Source: Candidatus Iainarchaeum sp. (lineage in GTDB: Archaea; B1Sed10-29; WALL01). From it: 64,000 bases of DNA. Under the pieces are notes generated by a model that had not been told where the DNA came from, made no database searches, and saw only the letters and a program-made list of their open reading frames with translations. Made by a program: the position numbers and the translations under genes. The DNA lies in contig JAGMCR010000001.1 in the NCBI GenBank assembly GCA_023129115.1, positions 1-64,000 of the forward strand, read 5' to 3'. Positions 20,767 through 26,704 of the stretch are shown piece by piece (the stretch's first letter is position 1; every line of letters starts with the position of its first letter).

Positions 20767-21555
20767 ATGGTTTTCGAAAATTTTACTGTTGACGAGGCGG
20801 ACGTGAGCCGCGCCATTATCCGGGAGTTCATGAAGGAGCTGGACGCAATGGCAGAGACAGACGTAATCATTGTCGGTGCAGGCCCCGCTGGGGCAGTCGC
20901 CGCCAGGAAGCTGGCGGAGCAAGGCATTGACACGCTGTTGATTGAAAAAAACGTGAAGCCGGGCGGGGGCATGTATCTCGGCGGCATGCTCATGAACAAG
21001 CTCGTCGTCGAAAAGCCCGCAATTTACTTGCTGGAAGAGGTGGGGGTCAAGTCACTAAAGCTCTACAAGGAAGGGCTTTACGTCGCGGACGCGTATGAGG
21101 TCTCGACCAAGCTTTTGGCGAGCGCGTTTGACGCTGGCGCCAAGATGCTTAACGCGGTCGAGGTCGCGGACGTTGTCTACCGGCCCGACAAAATCGCGGG
21201 CGTTGTCGTGAACTGGCACGCAATAAGCTACCTGCCGAAAGTGCTTACTTGTGTCGACCCATTGGCGTTCAAGAGCAAGATGGTGATTGACGCGACGGGC
21301 CACGGCGCGGAAATCGCGAAAATCGCGGGCAGAAAACTTGGCTTTGAGGTCCACGGCTGCGAGGGCAGCATGTGGATGGCCGAGGCCGAGAAAGCGACGC
21401 TGGAGAACACGAAAGAGATTTATCCCGGGCTTATTGTCGCTGGAATGGCGGCAAACAGCGCGTTCGGCCTGCCAAGGATGGGCCCGCTGTTCGGGGCAAT
21501 GTTCTTGTCCGGAGAAAAGGCCGCGGGGCTCGCCGCAGCCAAGCTGAAGGGATAA
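20767..21555 (+). CDS. thi4: Thiamine thiazole synthase (Thi4 family) with cysteine at the sulfur-donor position
   Basis: A 262-aa FAD/NAD-dependent enzyme that makes the thiazole moiety of thiamine from NAD and glycine. Features: dinucleotide-binding VIIVGAGPAGAVAARKLAE (residues 33-51), IEKNVKPGGGMYLGGM, and ATGHGAEIAKI. At residue 162 the motif is TCVDPL. Methanogen enzymes have His here (HVDP) and use free sulfide, whereas yeast and plant enzymes have Cys (CMDP) and sacrifice that sulfur. This protein therefore carries the suicide-type residue. It is immediately upstream of the cysteine-synthase leader. A TTTTATAG box lies about 37 nt before the ATG. Confidence 0.9.
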   Translation: MVFENFTVDEADVSRAIIREFMKELDAMAETDVIIVGAGPAGAVAARKLAEQGIDTLLIEKNVKPGGGMYLGGMLMNKLVVEKPAIYLLEEVGVKSLKLYKEGLYVADAYEVSTKLLASAFDAGAKMLNAVEVADVVYRPDKIAGVVVNWHAISYLPKVLTCVDPLAFKSKMVIDATGHGAEIAKIAGRKLGFEVHGCEGSMWMAEAEKATLENTKEIYPGLIVAGMAANSAFGLPRMGPLFGAMFLSGEKAAGLAAAKLKG

Positions 21556-21589
21556 AGCTTAAATACTCCCTTTGGCAATAATCATGCTA

Positions 21590-21622
21590 ATGCAAGGTTT
21601 GGCCTGTTGCTGTTGTTGCTGA
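21590..21622 (+). CDS. Cysteine leader peptide (five consecutive Cys codons)
   Basis: ATG CAA GGT TTG GCC is followed by TGT TGC TGT TGT TGC and TGA, giving MQGLACCCCC. A TATA box (TTAAATA, 21559-21565) is centred 28 nt upstream, the leaderless spacing seen across this window; an ATG at 21584 would add two residues. The peptide sits 114 nt before cysteine synthase. Runs of codons for the pathway end-product are the hallmark of attenuation leaders, and here the Cys codons lie inside an RNA stem, so ribosome stalling on them would reshape the leader RNA. Confidence 0.7.
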   Translation: MQGLACCCCC

Positions 21623-21740
21623 GAAAGCAATCCAACTACTTCTTGCAATAGGCCACAAAAGCATTTCACATCGCCTACAGCCATTGCTGTTCGCCTGTTG
21701 CATGAACCCTCAAACAAAATCCGAGGTGACGACAGGTGAA
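21600..21740 (+). promoter_or_regulatory. Predicted four-segment attenuator controlling cysteine synthase translation
   Basis: Segment 1 (21601-21610, GGCCTGTTGC, covering Cys codons 1-2) pairs over 10 bp with segment 2 (21645-21654, GCAATAGGCC). Segment 3 (21693-21701, GCCTGTTGC) repeats segment 1 and pairs with the same segment 2. Segment 3, extended to 21690-21700, instead pairs over 11 bp (two G-U) with segment 4 (21730-21740, CGACAGGTGAA), which contains the cysteine-synthase GTG start. Stalling at Cys codons would free segment 2 to capture 3 and expose the start; fast translation would leave 1:2 and 3:4 paired and hide it. A small hairpin at 21616-21630 spans the leader stop codon. Confidence 0.6.
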
Positions 21741-22617
21741 AATGATTGAAATGGTTGGCGACACGCCAATAACAAATATCCCGGGGACAAGCGTGTGGAT
21801 GAAGCTAGAGTACTTCAATCCCACGGGAAGCATAAAGGACAGGGTGGCTGCTTCCATGGTCGAGGACGCCGAGCAAAAAGGCTTGCTGTCGAAAGGCGAC
21901 ACTATTGTCGAGCCCACCAGCGGCAACACTGGCATCGCGCTTTCTTTTGTCGCGGCAATGAAGGGCTACAAGGCAGTGCTCGTCATGCCGGAAAACGCGA
22001 CGGTCGAGCGCGTCAAGCTCATGAAGGCCTTCGGCGCCGAAGTCGTGCTGACTCCTGTCGGCGGCCACGTCGCCGGCGCGGTCGAAAAGGCAAGGCAGCT
22101 CGCCAGCGAAAGGGGGTGGGTCCTTTTGGACCAGTTCAGCAGCCAGGCAAACATAGCCGCCCACGAAAAAACCGGTGAAGAAGCCATGCGCCAGGCAGGC
22201 GGGTTTGACGCAGTCGTTGCGGGAATCGGGACCGGTGGGACACTCATGGGCGCCGGCAAAGCAGTGCGGCGCTCGAACCCGCGCGCCAGGCTGGTAGCTG
22301 TCGAGCCGGCAGAGGCGCCCGTGCTCTCCGAGGGAAGGGCGGGCTCCCACGGAATCGCGGGCATCAGTGACGGCTTTGTCCCCGCGATTTACGACAGCGG
22401 GGCTGTCGACGAAGTCGTGCGCGTGAGCACTGAAGAGGCAATTGAGGCCACTCGCCTGGCGGCCGGGAAATACGGCATTCTCGGCGGCGTGTCCACGGGA
22501 GCCAACTTGTTCGCGGCCCTCAAGGCACAAAAGCACGGGAAAGTATTGACCTTTGCCCCGGACTCGGGGATGAGGTACCTGAGCAATGGCGTGTACAACA
22601 TTAATTTAAAGGAATGA
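21736..22617 (+). CDS. Cysteine synthase (PLP-dependent, CysK/CysM family)
   Basis: A 293-aa fold-type II PLP enzyme that replaces the O-acetyl or O-phospho group of an activated serine with sulfide. Motifs: FNPTGSIKDRVA (PLP lysine near residue 36), EPTSGNTGIAL (phosphate and substrate loop), GTGGTLMGAGKAV (PLP-phosphate cradle), SHGIAGISDGFVP. O-acetylserine and O-phosphoserine substrates cannot be told apart by eye. GTG 21736 has GAGGTGA 6 nt upstream; ATG 21742 is an alternative. The start region is part of the predicted attenuator stem. tRNA-Cys lies 127 nt downstream, so supply and use of cysteine are encoded together. Confidence 0.93.
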   Translation: MKMIEMVGDTPITNIPGTSVWMKLEYFNPTGSIKDRVAASMVEDAEQKGLLSKGDTIVEPTSGNTGIALSFVAAMKGYKAVLVMPENATVERVKLMKAFGAEVVLTPVGGHVAGAVEKARQLASERGWVLLDQFSSQANIAAHEKTGEEAMRQAGGFDAVVAGIGTGGTLMGAGKAVRRSNPRARLVAVEPAEAPVLSEGRAGSHGIAGISDGFVPAIYDSGAVDEVVRVSTEEAIEATRLAAGKYGILGGVSTGANLFAALKAQKHGKVLTFAPDSGMRYLSNGVYNINLKE

Positions 22618-22652
22618 AGTTTATAACATTCTTGACTTGCAGAGGTAGCAAA

Positions 22653-22744
22653 CCAGCTGAAACGTCAGCACAGACAAGAATCCGTTGGGATTCACGTCAT
22701 GGCACCGTGTATGCGGATGCTTCGCATCCGGCATACGAGAGAAC
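22653..22744 (+). mobile_element. 92-nt hairpin element with 14-bp target duplication at the tRNA-Cys gene
   Basis: The 14-nt tRNA 5' sequence GCAGAGGTAGCAAA occurs twice, at 22639-22652 and as the true tRNA start 22745-22758. The 92 nt between are three hairpins: GCTGA-AACG-TCAGC, GAATCC-GTT-GGATTC, and GTATGC-GGATGC-TTC-GCATCC-GCATAC with one bulge. GGGATTCACGTCATGGCAC inside it recurs with one change at 39289-39309. Direct repeats flanking a structured segment are what insertion with target-site duplication leaves. The element is too short to encode its own transposase. Confidence 0.6.
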
Positions 22745-22815
22745 GCAGAGGTAGCAAAATGGCTTTGCACCCGCCTGCAGAGCGGGAGATGGGGGTTCAA
22801 ATCCCTCCCTCTGCT
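22745..22815 (+). tRNA. tRNA-Cys (anticodon GCA)
   Basis: A complete cloverleaf can be drawn: acceptor GCAGAGG/CCTCTGC, D stem GCAA/TTGC with loop AATGGCT, anticodon stem CCCGC/GCGGG with loop CTGCAGA (anticodon GCA), variable AGATG, T stem GGGGG/CCCTC with loop TTCAAAT. The discriminator is T (U73), the identity base of tRNA-Cys. CCA is not encoded. The nearest TATA-like boxes (22605, 22619) lie before the inserted hairpin element, so the mature 5' end would need RNase P cleavage of a roughly 100-nt leader. Confidence 0.93.
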
Positions 22816-22832
22816 TTTTTGGAGTGCTGTCT

Positions 22833-23786
22833 ATGCAGCTAAACAAAATCTTGTTGGTCGGCTATGGCGAAGAGGCTCTTGAGCCAAAGCAATGGGAGCG
22901 CCTCGACGGCTTGGCCAAAGAGCGCGTTCTGCTGCCGAAGGGCAGCCCCGAAATCCCAAAGCATTTTGCTGGCACTGACTGCCTTCTCGTCAAGCTGGGT
23001 GCGACAGTTGACAAAAGCATGATTGACAGCATGCCCGGCCTGAAGTACATTGGCATGCTCGGCACAGGCTGCGGCAGGATTGATGTGGCCCACGCCGCTT
23101 CCAAAGGCATTACTGTCTGCAACATCGTTGGCTACAGCACCGAGAGTGTCGCCGAACTGGTATTTGCCCTAATCCTTGAGCACATTCGCGAAATAGAAAA
23201 AGCAAAAAAGCAGGCGAGGGAAGCCAATTATTCAGAAGACGGCTTCGGGGCATACGAGATAAAGGGCAAGGTATTCGGGGTCATTGGCCTCGGCAGAATC
23301 GGCGCCCGCACAGCAGAGATTGCGCTGAACGGCTTTGGGGCCGACGCCCGGTACTGGTCCAGGCAACGAAAAGAAAAATACGAGAAAGAAGGCGTGAAAT
23401 ACCAGGGCCTTGACTCTCTCTTGCAGGAAGCGGACTTTATTTCCATTCACATGGAGGCAAACAAAGAAACAAACGGCTTCTTGGGCCACGGCCGCGTCCA
23501 AAAAATCAAGCCCGGTGCAGTGGTCGTCAATACTGCCCCAATGGACGTGGTGGACATCAGCGCCCTCGCGGAAAGGCTGGGGAAAGGGGACCTAACATTT
23601 ATTCTGGACCATTCTGACGAGCTGTCAGAAGCAGACGCAAAAGAGCTTTCAAAATACAAGAACTGCATCATGTACCCCCCGATTGGCTATATATCGGACG
23701 AAGCCACGCTGGCCAAATTAGACATGTTTGTTGACAACATCCAAAACTTTTTGGAAGGAAAGCCCACCAACGTAGTGCAGGGGTGA
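22833..23786 (+). CDS. D-2-hydroxyacid dehydrogenase homologue lacking catalytic residues
   Basis: A 317-aa protein with the two-domain fold of NAD-dependent D-2-hydroxyacid dehydrogenases. The substrate-domain segment GLKYIGMLGTGCGRIDVAHA and the NAD-binding VFGVIGLGRIGART are clear. However, the catalytic Arg motif (usually N-x-A-R-G) reads VNTAPMDVVD, and the usual TPHIG histidine motif reads YPPIG, so both Arg and His are missing. The protein may bind NAD without dehydrogenase activity or have a changed chemistry. ATG 22833 has GGAGTG 6 nt upstream; GTG 22824 is longer. The TBP-like lipoprotein follows after 3 nt. Confidence 0.82.
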   Translation: MQLNKILLVGYGEEALEPKQWERLDGLAKERVLLPKGSPEIPKHFAGTDCLLVKLGATVDKSMIDSMPGLKYIGMLGTGCGRIDVAHAASKGITVCNIVGYSTESVAELVFALILEHIREIEKAKKQAREANYSEDGFGAYEIKGKVFGVIGLGRIGARTAEIALNGFGADARYWSRQRKEKYEKEGVKYQGLDSLLQEADFISIHMEANKETNGFLGHGRVQKIKPGAVVVNTAPMDVVDISALAERLGKGDLTFILDHSDELSEADAKELSKYKNCIMYPPIGYISDEATLAKLDMFVDNIQNFLEGKPTNVVQG

Positions 23787-24443: not shown

Positions 24444-24473
24444 ATATATAGTTCTTCTGCCTAAGTGGGAAGC

Positions 24474-24845
24474 ATGGAAGCCATTTCGACCAACAAAGCC
24501 CCTGCGGCCGTTGGGCCGTACTCGCAGGCGATTAAGGCAGGCAACTTCGTGTTCACCGCCGGGCAAATCGCGCTCACGCCCGAAGGCGAATTGGTCAACG
24601 GCGGCATCGCGGAGCAGACAGAGCAAGTGGTCCAGAACCTCAAGGCCGTGCTCGAAGAAGCCGGCACAACCATCCACAGCGTCGTCAAGACCACGGTCTA
24701 CCTCGCCCAGATGAGCGACTTCGCCCTCATGAACGAGGTGTACGGGGCACACTTCACGAGCAAGCCCGCCCGCTCAACAATCCAGGCAGCCAAAATCCCG
24801 AGAGGGGCGCTCGTCGAAATTGACGTCATCGCGGTGATGGAGTGA
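24474..24845 (+). CDS. ridA: RidA/YjgF-family enamine/imine deaminase
   Basis: A 123-aa protein of the Rid family, which hydrolyses reactive enamines and imines (for example 2-aminoacrylate formed from serine or cysteine by PLP enzymes). Motifs: APAAVGPYSQAIKAGNFVFT, GQIALTPEGELVNGGIAEQT, ARSTIQAAKIPRGALVEIDV, the latter with the conserved Arg of the active site. The leaderless ATG lies 25 nt after TATATA (24446-24451); GTG 24465 is an alternative. Position near cysteine synthase fits 2-aminoacrylate detoxification. It is the first gene of a chain of overlapping genes ending with cysS. Confidence 0.94.
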   Translation: MEAISTNKAPAAVGPYSQAIKAGNFVFTAGQIALTPEGELVNGGIAEQTEQVVQNLKAVLEEAGTTIHSVVKTTVYLAQMSDFALMNEVYGAHFTSKPARSTIQAAKIPRGALVEIDVIAVME

Positions 24846-25303: not shown

Positions 25304-26704
25304 ATGAAATTCTTCAACACGCTCGGCAGGGAAAAGCAGGAGTTCAAGCCGCTGCGCGACGGCGAAGTAACCCTGTACGCGTGCGGCCCCACGGTGTACG
25401 CACTGCCGCACATCGGCAACTTCCGCTCGTTCTTCTTCGCGGACACGCTGCACCGCTATTTGGAATACAAGGGATACAAAGTAAAGTTCGCCATGAACAT
25501 CACCGACATCGACGACAAGACCATTCGCGACTCCAAGGAAGCCGGAGTATCACTAAAAGAATTCACCGACAAGTACACCAAAGTCTTTTTCGAGGGCCTC
25601 GACGCGCTCAACATAAAGCGCGCCGACTTTTACCCCAAAGCAACCGAGAACATCCCCGAAATGATTGACCTCGTGCAGCACCTCCTCGACAAGGAACTCG
25701 CTTACATAGTCAACGGCTCGGTGTATTATTCAATCCACAAGTTCCCCGACTACGGCAAGCTCTCCGGCATGGACCTGGGCCAGCTAGAGCACGGCCACCG
25801 CGTCGACGTAGACGAGTACGAAAAGGACGCGCCCGGCGACTTCGCGGTCTGGAAAGCCGCGTCGGCAGAGGAAATCGAGCGCAAGATTTTCTTCGACACG
25901 CCGTGGGGCAAGGGCAGGCCCGGGTGGCACATCGAGTGCTCGGCGATGAGCCGCAAGGAATTGGGCCAGCCGTTCGACATCCACACCGGTGGAGTCGATT
26001 TAATCTTTCCGCACCACGAGAACGAAATCGCGCAGTCCGAGGGCGCGTACGGCGAGAAGTTCGTGAACTACTGGCTGCACGGGGAGCACTTGAGTGTGGA
26101 CGGCCGCAAAATGTCGAAATCGAAGGGAAACTACTTCACGCTCACCGACCTGTTAGAGAAATATAGCTATAACGAAATCCGCTACTTGTTTTTGTCGACG
26201 CACTACCGCGACAAGCTGAACTACACCGAGCCAGCGATGAAGAACGCGGCGAGCGGTGCCGCCAAACTGGAGTTGGCGCTGCAGAACCTGGACTTTTTCA
26301 TTGCGAACGCAAAGGAAGGCAAGGAAGACAAAGAGTTTTTGGCAACAGTCGAAAAAAGAAAAACCGAGTTCAACGAGGCAATGGACGACGACCTGGACAC
26401 CCCACGCGCGCTGCGCGCCATCCACGAGCTTGTGTCTGACATTTACAGGTACGAGGCAAAGGAAAAGAAGGCGCTCGAGAAGGCGAAGGAATCACTCCGC
26501 ACTCTCTTGCATGTGTTCGGCTTGTTCGAGAAAGAGGGCGAGCGCGAAGCGCTCGGCGAGGCGCTAATGGCCAAAATCAAGGAGCGCGAGGCAGCAAGGG
26601 CCGCGAAGGACTTCGAGAAGGCCGACTCCATCCGCGACGAATTAAAGAAAAAAGGCGTTTTGCTGGACGACTTCCCCGAGGGAACCCGGTGGAGAAGGGC
26701 CTAG
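25304..26704 (+). CDS. cysS: Cysteinyl-tRNA synthetase
   Basis: A full-length 466-aa class Ia synthetase. Motifs: YACGPTVYALPHIGNFRS (HIGH motif and the first Zn cysteine), HIECSAMSRKELG (second Zn Cys), FPHHENEIAQSE (Zn His and Glu), DGRKMSKSKGN (KMSKS), then the C-terminal helical anticodon domain with a DALIA-like end (EREAARAAKDFEKADSIRDEL). It charges the tRNA-Cys encoded 2.5 kb upstream, so this organism does not rely on the SepRS/SepCysS route used by some methanogens. Its 3' end overlaps the convergent radical-SAM gene by 4 nt. Confidence 0.97.
   Translation: MKFFNTLGREKQEFKPLRDGEVTLYACGPTVYALPHIGNFRSFFFADTLHRYLEYKGYKVKFAMNITDIDDKTIRDSKEAGVSLKEFTDKYTKVFFEGLDALNIKRADFYPKATENIPEMIDLVQHLLDKELAYIVNGSVYYSIHKFPDYGKLSGMDLGQLEHGHRVDVDEYEKDAPGDFAVWKAASAEEIERKIFFDTPWGKGRPGWHIECSAMSRKELGQPFDIHTGGVDLIFPHHENEIAQSEGAYGEKFVNYWLHGEHLSVDGRKMSKSKGNYFTLTDLLEKYSYNEIRYLFLSTHYRDKLNYTEPAMKNAASGAAKLELALQNLDFFIANAKEGKEDKEFLATVEKRKTEFNEAMDDDLDTPRALRAIHELVSDIYRYEAKEKKALEKAKESLRTLLHVFGLFEKEGEREALGEALMAKIKEREAARAAKDFEKADSIRDELKKKGVLLDDFPEGTRWRRA

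Follow-up and report, generated by a model that had tools for sequence, protein, structure and literature searches.

A candidate cysteine-responsive leader-peptide attenuator upstream of an archaeal cysteine synthase gene

Introduction

Leader-peptide attenuation is a textbook mechanism of gene regulation in bacteria. In erm-type translational attenuators, a ribosome stalled on the leader exposes the ribosome binding site (RBS) of the downstream gene, and classical attenuators usually have their more stable hairpin on the terminator side. Among the systems linked to cysteine, leaderless polycysteine short ORFs from mycobacteria have been reported to act as cysteine-responsive attenuators (Canestrari et al. 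2020, Mol Microbiol 114:93, according to the passages of PMC9031893 and PMC9094748 that cite it). A 2005 analysis had already presented candidate Cys leaders of actinobacteria, for which it found no conserved hairpins (PMC1262725). For Archaea, the open literature, searched by title and abstract and with subscription journals mostly uncovered, yielded nothing relevant on leader-peptide attenuation, in line with an earlier note on the present DNA (the original prediction), whose author knew of no archaeal Cys-codon leader.

Here we describe a locus from Candidatus Iainarchaeum sp. that is likely to be a cysteine-responsive, ribosome-mediated translational attenuator. Three genomes of the family share the Cys run, the promoter geometry, and three mutually exclusive helices that end on the start region, which supports the translational reading given in the original prediction.

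The leader ORF and its putative target gene

The locus lies in a stretch of 64,000 nt (the window) of contig JAGMCR010000001.1, from a small archaeal phylum with 19 genomes in the comparison set. The mini-ORF with five consecutive Cys codons that had been proposed ahead of cysteine synthase, MQGLACCCCC, is present on the forward strand at 21590-21622 (ATG CAA GGT TTG GCC TGT TGC TGT TGT TGC TGA). An alternative in-frame ATG at 21584 would extend the peptide to MLMQGLACCCCC. The TATA-like box of the leader promoter, CTTAAATA (21558-21565, forward strand), has its centre 28 nt upstream of the ATG at 21590 and only 22 nt upstream of the one at 21584, which makes 21590 the likelier start. The leader mRNA is probably leaderless, since this spacing is the one expected for a leaderless archaeal transcript. 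The proximity of the leader to cysteine synthase holds as well, with a gap from stop to start of 113 nt, not the 114 nt previously given.

The putatively regulated gene encodes a cysteine synthase of the PALP/CysK-CysM family (21736-22617, forward strand), which matches PF00291 and also TIGR01136 at 4e-97, although under the curated cut-off of the latter model. It starts with a GTG at 21736, preceded by a Shine-Dalgarno-like GAGGTGA at 21724-21730 on the same strand. As had been noted, a tRNA-Cys (GCA; 22745-22815) lies just downstream and the cysteinyl-tRNA synthetase (CysRS) gene nearby (25304-26704; TIGR00435, 522.7 bits), both on the forward strand. Between them are encoded a D-2-hydroxyacid dehydrogenase resembling phosphoglycerate dehydrogenase (22824-23786, forward strand), which possibly supplies a serine precursor, a RidA-like protein, and a cupin, in this order. 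The tRNA-Cys also follows cysK directly in a genome of the same genus (G001). The RidA/L-PSP family protein (24465-24845), near both cysteine synthase and CysRS, has a similar counterpart adjoining cysS in G001. An Rfam scan of positions 21300-23000 matched no curated T-box or metabolite riboswitch family, the only hits being the tRNA and one sub-threshold sRNA overlapping it.

Mutually exclusive helices in the leader RNA

An unguided search for chained helices returned as its best solution the same switch that the original prediction had drawn. It consists of four segments on the forward strand: segment 1 (TGGCCTGTTGC, 21600-21610), over the first Cys codons; segment 2 (TGCAATAGGCCA, 21644-21655); segment 3 (TTCGCCTGTTGCA, 21690-21702); and segment 4 (CGACAGGTGAA, 21730-21740), over the GTG start codon. 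As claimed, segment 2 can pair with either of two partners. With segment 1 it forms 11 bp (TGGCCTGTTGC/GCAATAGGCCA, 21600-21610/21645-21655), and with segment 3 it forms 10 bp including one G-U (TGCAATAGGC/GCCTGTTGCA, 21644-21653/21693-21702). The 11-bp pairing of segment 3 with 21730-21740 was likewise recovered (TTCGCCTGTTG/CGACAGGTGAA, 21690-21700/21730-21740, with G-U); it covers the GTG at 21736 and its hairpin encloses the GAGGTGA. Segments 1 and 3 do share an identical 9-mer, GCCTGTTGC, found at 21602-21610 and 21693-21701. No set of four 9-mers in matching register turned up when the entire window was scanned strictly for one, because the 3:4 helix is offset from this 9-mer. The top of the 1:2 hairpin (21612-21636, forward strand) arises from pairing between the later Cys codons and AGCAA..CAAC, immediately past the stop codon, and folding places this stop codon at the GAGAA loop.

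In the proposed mechanism, the mRNA would be leaderless and open with an ORF of ten codons, the last five of them for Cys. With plentiful Cys-tRNA, the ribosome would finish the leader and leave, the 1:2 helix would form, and segment 3 would be free to pair with segment 4, closing the RBS and the start codon of cysteine synthase. Upon scarcity of Cys-tRNA, the ribosome would stall on the Cys codons and cover segment 1, so that segment 2 would capture segment 3 during transcription, with segment 4 and the start codon left open. The transcription start, the stalling, and the direction of regulation are what we infer from the sequence.

Conservation in related genomes

Leaders of the same architecture precede cysteine synthase in G001 (MRKMACCCCC) and in a genome of the same family (G003, MNTMDLCCCC). 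A genome from another family of the order (G007) carries the leader MKSRTFCCCC ahead of tRNA-Cys and cysS. The putative target genes are always cysteine genes. The TATA box is centred at -28 from the leader ATG in the window genome (G000), -26 in G001, -28 in G003, and -29 in G007. The Cys run, whose absence from relatives would have counted against the original prediction, is kept in all four genomes with 4-5 codons that vary only between TGT and TGC. Such conservation of a translated run could also reflect a functional Cys-rich micro-peptide, binding metals or thiols, with the RNA pairing being incidental. This is extremely unlikely, as only the Cys run is conserved and not the N-terminal half of the peptide (MQGLA, MRKMA, MNTMDL, MKSRTF), and the pairing is conserved beyond chance.

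The three helices 1:2, 2:3, and 3:4 are all present in G000, G001, and G003, giving each of these genomes mutually exclusive folds of which one overlaps the Cys codons, as an attenuator demands. The position of segment 1 is offset among the four leader sequences. In the three cysK leaders the 3:4 helix covers the Shine-Dalgarno/start region: that of G001 (CGCCTGTTG/CAACAGGCG) adjoins its start codon, and in that of G003 (TTTTCTTGGGCCT/AGGCCCAGGAGGA) segment 4, AGGCCCAGGAGGA, contains the Shine-Dalgarno sequence. In G007, the 2:3 helix is broken by one mismatch and no 3:4 helix is found at a start codon. The helices of G003 are built largely from different sequence and show paired changes relative to those of G000. 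Its 1:2 helix (CCATGGACCT/AGGTCCATGG) has a paired insertion in the core GG(A)CCU/AGG(U)CC and paired changes in the flanks, and its 2:3 helix reads TCTCAATAGGTCCA/TGGGCCTATTGAGA. A short DNA match in another genome, G045, was judged to be due to chance.

Inverted repeats just downstream of a promoter could instead be the operator of a DNA-binding protein, the Cys codons being a by-product or a chance occurrence. We find this scarcely credible, given that the run stands in frame after a start codon at leaderless distance and differs only synonymously among genomes, and that the repeats of G000 and G003 differ in sequence yet retain their complementarity.

The leader has also been kept while the enzyme behind it has changed. 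Over 110 nt that include the leader and segments 2 and 3, the DNA of G000 and G001 is 81% identical, whereas their CysK proteins share only 45% identity. Neighboring proteins are closer (CysS 74%, two others 62% and 69%), and CysK of G001 is 58% identical to that of G003. The cysteine synthase of the window is therefore unusually diverged or has been replaced, under a leader that is still 81% identical. This fits a leader that would track cysteine rather than one particular protein.

Statistical support

The region 21584-21760 has a minimum free energy z-score of -3.7. When the leader ORF was kept and the remainder shuffled with dinucleotides preserved, a 1:2/2:3/3:4 chain of equal strength appeared in none of 5000 shuffles for G000, one of 5000 for G001, and none of 5000 for G003. 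The 1:2 helices alone are not rare, being reached in 161-443 of 2000 shuffles for the three cysK leaders and in 770 of 2000 for G007, whose 2:3 helix with one mismatch was reached in 34 of 2000. The folding and complementarity checks suggested along with the original prediction thus show a chain beyond chance that is kept in three genomes.

These numbers bear on another alternative, a plain upstream ORF effect through reinitiation or polarity, in which cysteine would be sensed without a four-segment switch. This may hold in mycobacteria, whose leaderless poly-Cys ORFs are reported as cysteine-responsive attenuators (as cited in PMC9031893 and PMC9094748) and showed no conserved terminator hairpins in the 2005 analysis (PMC1262725). 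For the archaeal locus such a reading is very unlikely, since the chained helices lie far above chance in three genomes and the pairing is kept despite sequence change.

The pattern of four Cys codons plus stop was searched for in 394 archaeal genomes, and 136 distinct occurrences, a part of the listed matches, were examined. Four of these 136 are short ORFs outside long genes and ahead of cys genes, all of them from the present order. Of the matches examined in these 394 genomes and in 118 genomes from the order of locus L173 (described below), again a part of those listed, nearly all fell within long genes in a different frame and were discarded.

Folding of growing and complete transcripts

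The stalled state was modeled by covering the first part of the RNA, as a ribosome at the first Cys codon would do. In growing transcripts with segment 1 covered, the 2:3 helix forms in G000, G001, and G003 until segment 4 emerges. Without a ribosome, growing G000 transcripts show 1:2 throughout and later 3:4. At full length, on the other hand, stalled RNA prefers 3:4 over 2:3 in G000 (-40.7 versus -36.9, about 4 kcal/mol) and in G003 (-53.8 versus -46.4, about 7 kcal/mol), and only G001 prefers 2:3 (-43.7 versus -41.5). The switch of G000 and G003 must therefore be kinetic, and 2:3 would have to persist as the first-formed structure. The predicted effect of stalling, favoring 2:3, appears in growing transcripts of the three genomes until segment 4 emerges and in the equilibrium of G001, but not in the equilibria of G000 and G003.

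The predicted state of fast translation, 1:2 with 3:4, is similarly seen in the growing transcripts of G000 but not in ribosome-free G001, which folds as 1:4 plus 2:3. The 1:4 pairing is made possible by the 9-mer common to segments 1 and 3, and in the folding model covering segment 1 in this structure leaves segment 4 free too.

Other candidate cysteine-linked leaders in Archaea

Candidate leader ORFs, probably leaderless, were also found in named cysS neighborhoods of a second lineage, before a gene for a PIG-L deacetylase (L173, 8320-8545; L280, about 320-440; L279, about 1435-1500). The archaeon SI047_bin43 carries two of them in tandem, MYLDCCC and MKITNNLRNVYVFSSFKILCCCC, each closed by a stop codon, and behind these the genes for PIG-L, a membrane protein, and CysS. 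In one relative, MSVITICCCC precedes PIG-L. In another, the position is taken by MTWPCSF, with a single Cys, and the same three genes follow. The membrane protein and cysS thus come after PIG-L in two of the three genomes. TATA boxes again have their centres 27-29 nt ahead of the first leader. Behind the leaders come U-rich stretches and no evident hairpin, so that their output may differ from start-codon sequestration.

Such leaders speak for an attenuation acting on transcription, in which the leader ribosome would decide whether RNA polymerase continues (by coupling or factor-dependent termination) and the hairpins would be secondary. The U-rich tracts and the little structure evident after the leaders of L173 and L280 would suit it, as would the G007 leader, which precedes tRNA-Cys, a gene without a start codon to hide. 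As an account of the window locus it is nevertheless unlikely: in G000, G001, and G003 segment 4 lies on the Shine-Dalgarno/start and no U-tract follows the 3:4 helix, and an output at translation is favored for this reason. More broadly, we think it rather probable that amino-acid-responsive leader-peptide attenuation has arisen more than once in Archaea, as leaderless poly-Cys ORFs with different outputs that converge with those of mycobacteria. In Diapherotrites the output would be sequestration of the start codon; in the second family it would possibly be control of transcription through U-tracts.

Several further features were observed at cysteine genes of related genomes. In G005 (L016, about 1455-1520) and G014 (L015, about 1450-1520), a short ORF overlaps the cysK start in another frame (MDKNLRGDYRCPWRIGYNW and MRIKQTKGDYRCS, respectively, each with a stop codon and behind a strong Shine-Dalgarno sequence). 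The two ORFs use the same codons for G, D, and Y except at third positions, both read CGG TGC next, and cysK goes on in the +1 frame. Neither cysK nor cysS contains CGG in these genomes, and the GDYRC pattern, searched in 394 genomes, occurs at cysK only in these two. From these reading frames, a +1 frameshift at the rare CGG beside a Cys codon is a possible second cysteine-linked control of cysK. Upstream of cysK, L016 and L015 also hold MGFVLMGNDVGFDVFPTSCC and MMTPTPIANGKNVSLLGRLSCCWLYC, candidate Cys leaders in which Cys codons are fewer. Both end in a stop and lie 24-27 nt from a TATA-like box.

Between cysK and cysS of G003 (L013/L164) there is a tRNA-Cys with an apparent short intron, uncalled by ARAGORN. 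Behind it lies an ORF resembling, by eye, a LAGLIDADG homing endonuclease. In G014 (L020) and G013 (L026), small ORFs that by eye look helix-turn-helix-like lie directly ahead of tRNA-Cys and cysS, and possibly encode a transcription regulator of this pair.

Comparison with known systems

Conserved, largely rebuilt helices in uncultured archaea suggest a role of archaeal ribosomes as sensors of amino acids, and ribosome stalling on Cys codons becomes a testable prediction. For lineages known only from genomes, the succession of TATA box, 26-29 nt, ATG, Cys run, and stop codon provides a searchable signature of regulons.

The window element resembles the trp, his, and ilv attenuators (PMC1183508) in its leader rich in the regulatory codon and in the exclusive choice of 1:2 plus 3:4 versus 2:3. 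These attenuators end in a transcription terminator, whereas the 3:4 hairpin of the window has no U-tract, hides the RBS, and belongs to an archaeal host. In erm systems, the signal is a macrolide-bound ribosome, while here it is presumed to be a shortage of Cys-tRNA. With the mycobacterial poly-Cys ORFs, as portrayed in the articles citing them, the element shares a short ORF with a run of Cys codons, which in mycobacteria is leaderless and placed ahead of operons and at the window locus is probably leaderless too. It differs from these bacterial elements in its archaeal host, its TATA promoters, and a four-segment fold ending on the start codon, and the prefix of its peptide is unrelated to theirs. 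The likeness is presumed to be convergence between different domains of life. This type of cysteine control is known from bacteria, and the present locus would be, as far as found in the literature searched, its first archaeal case.
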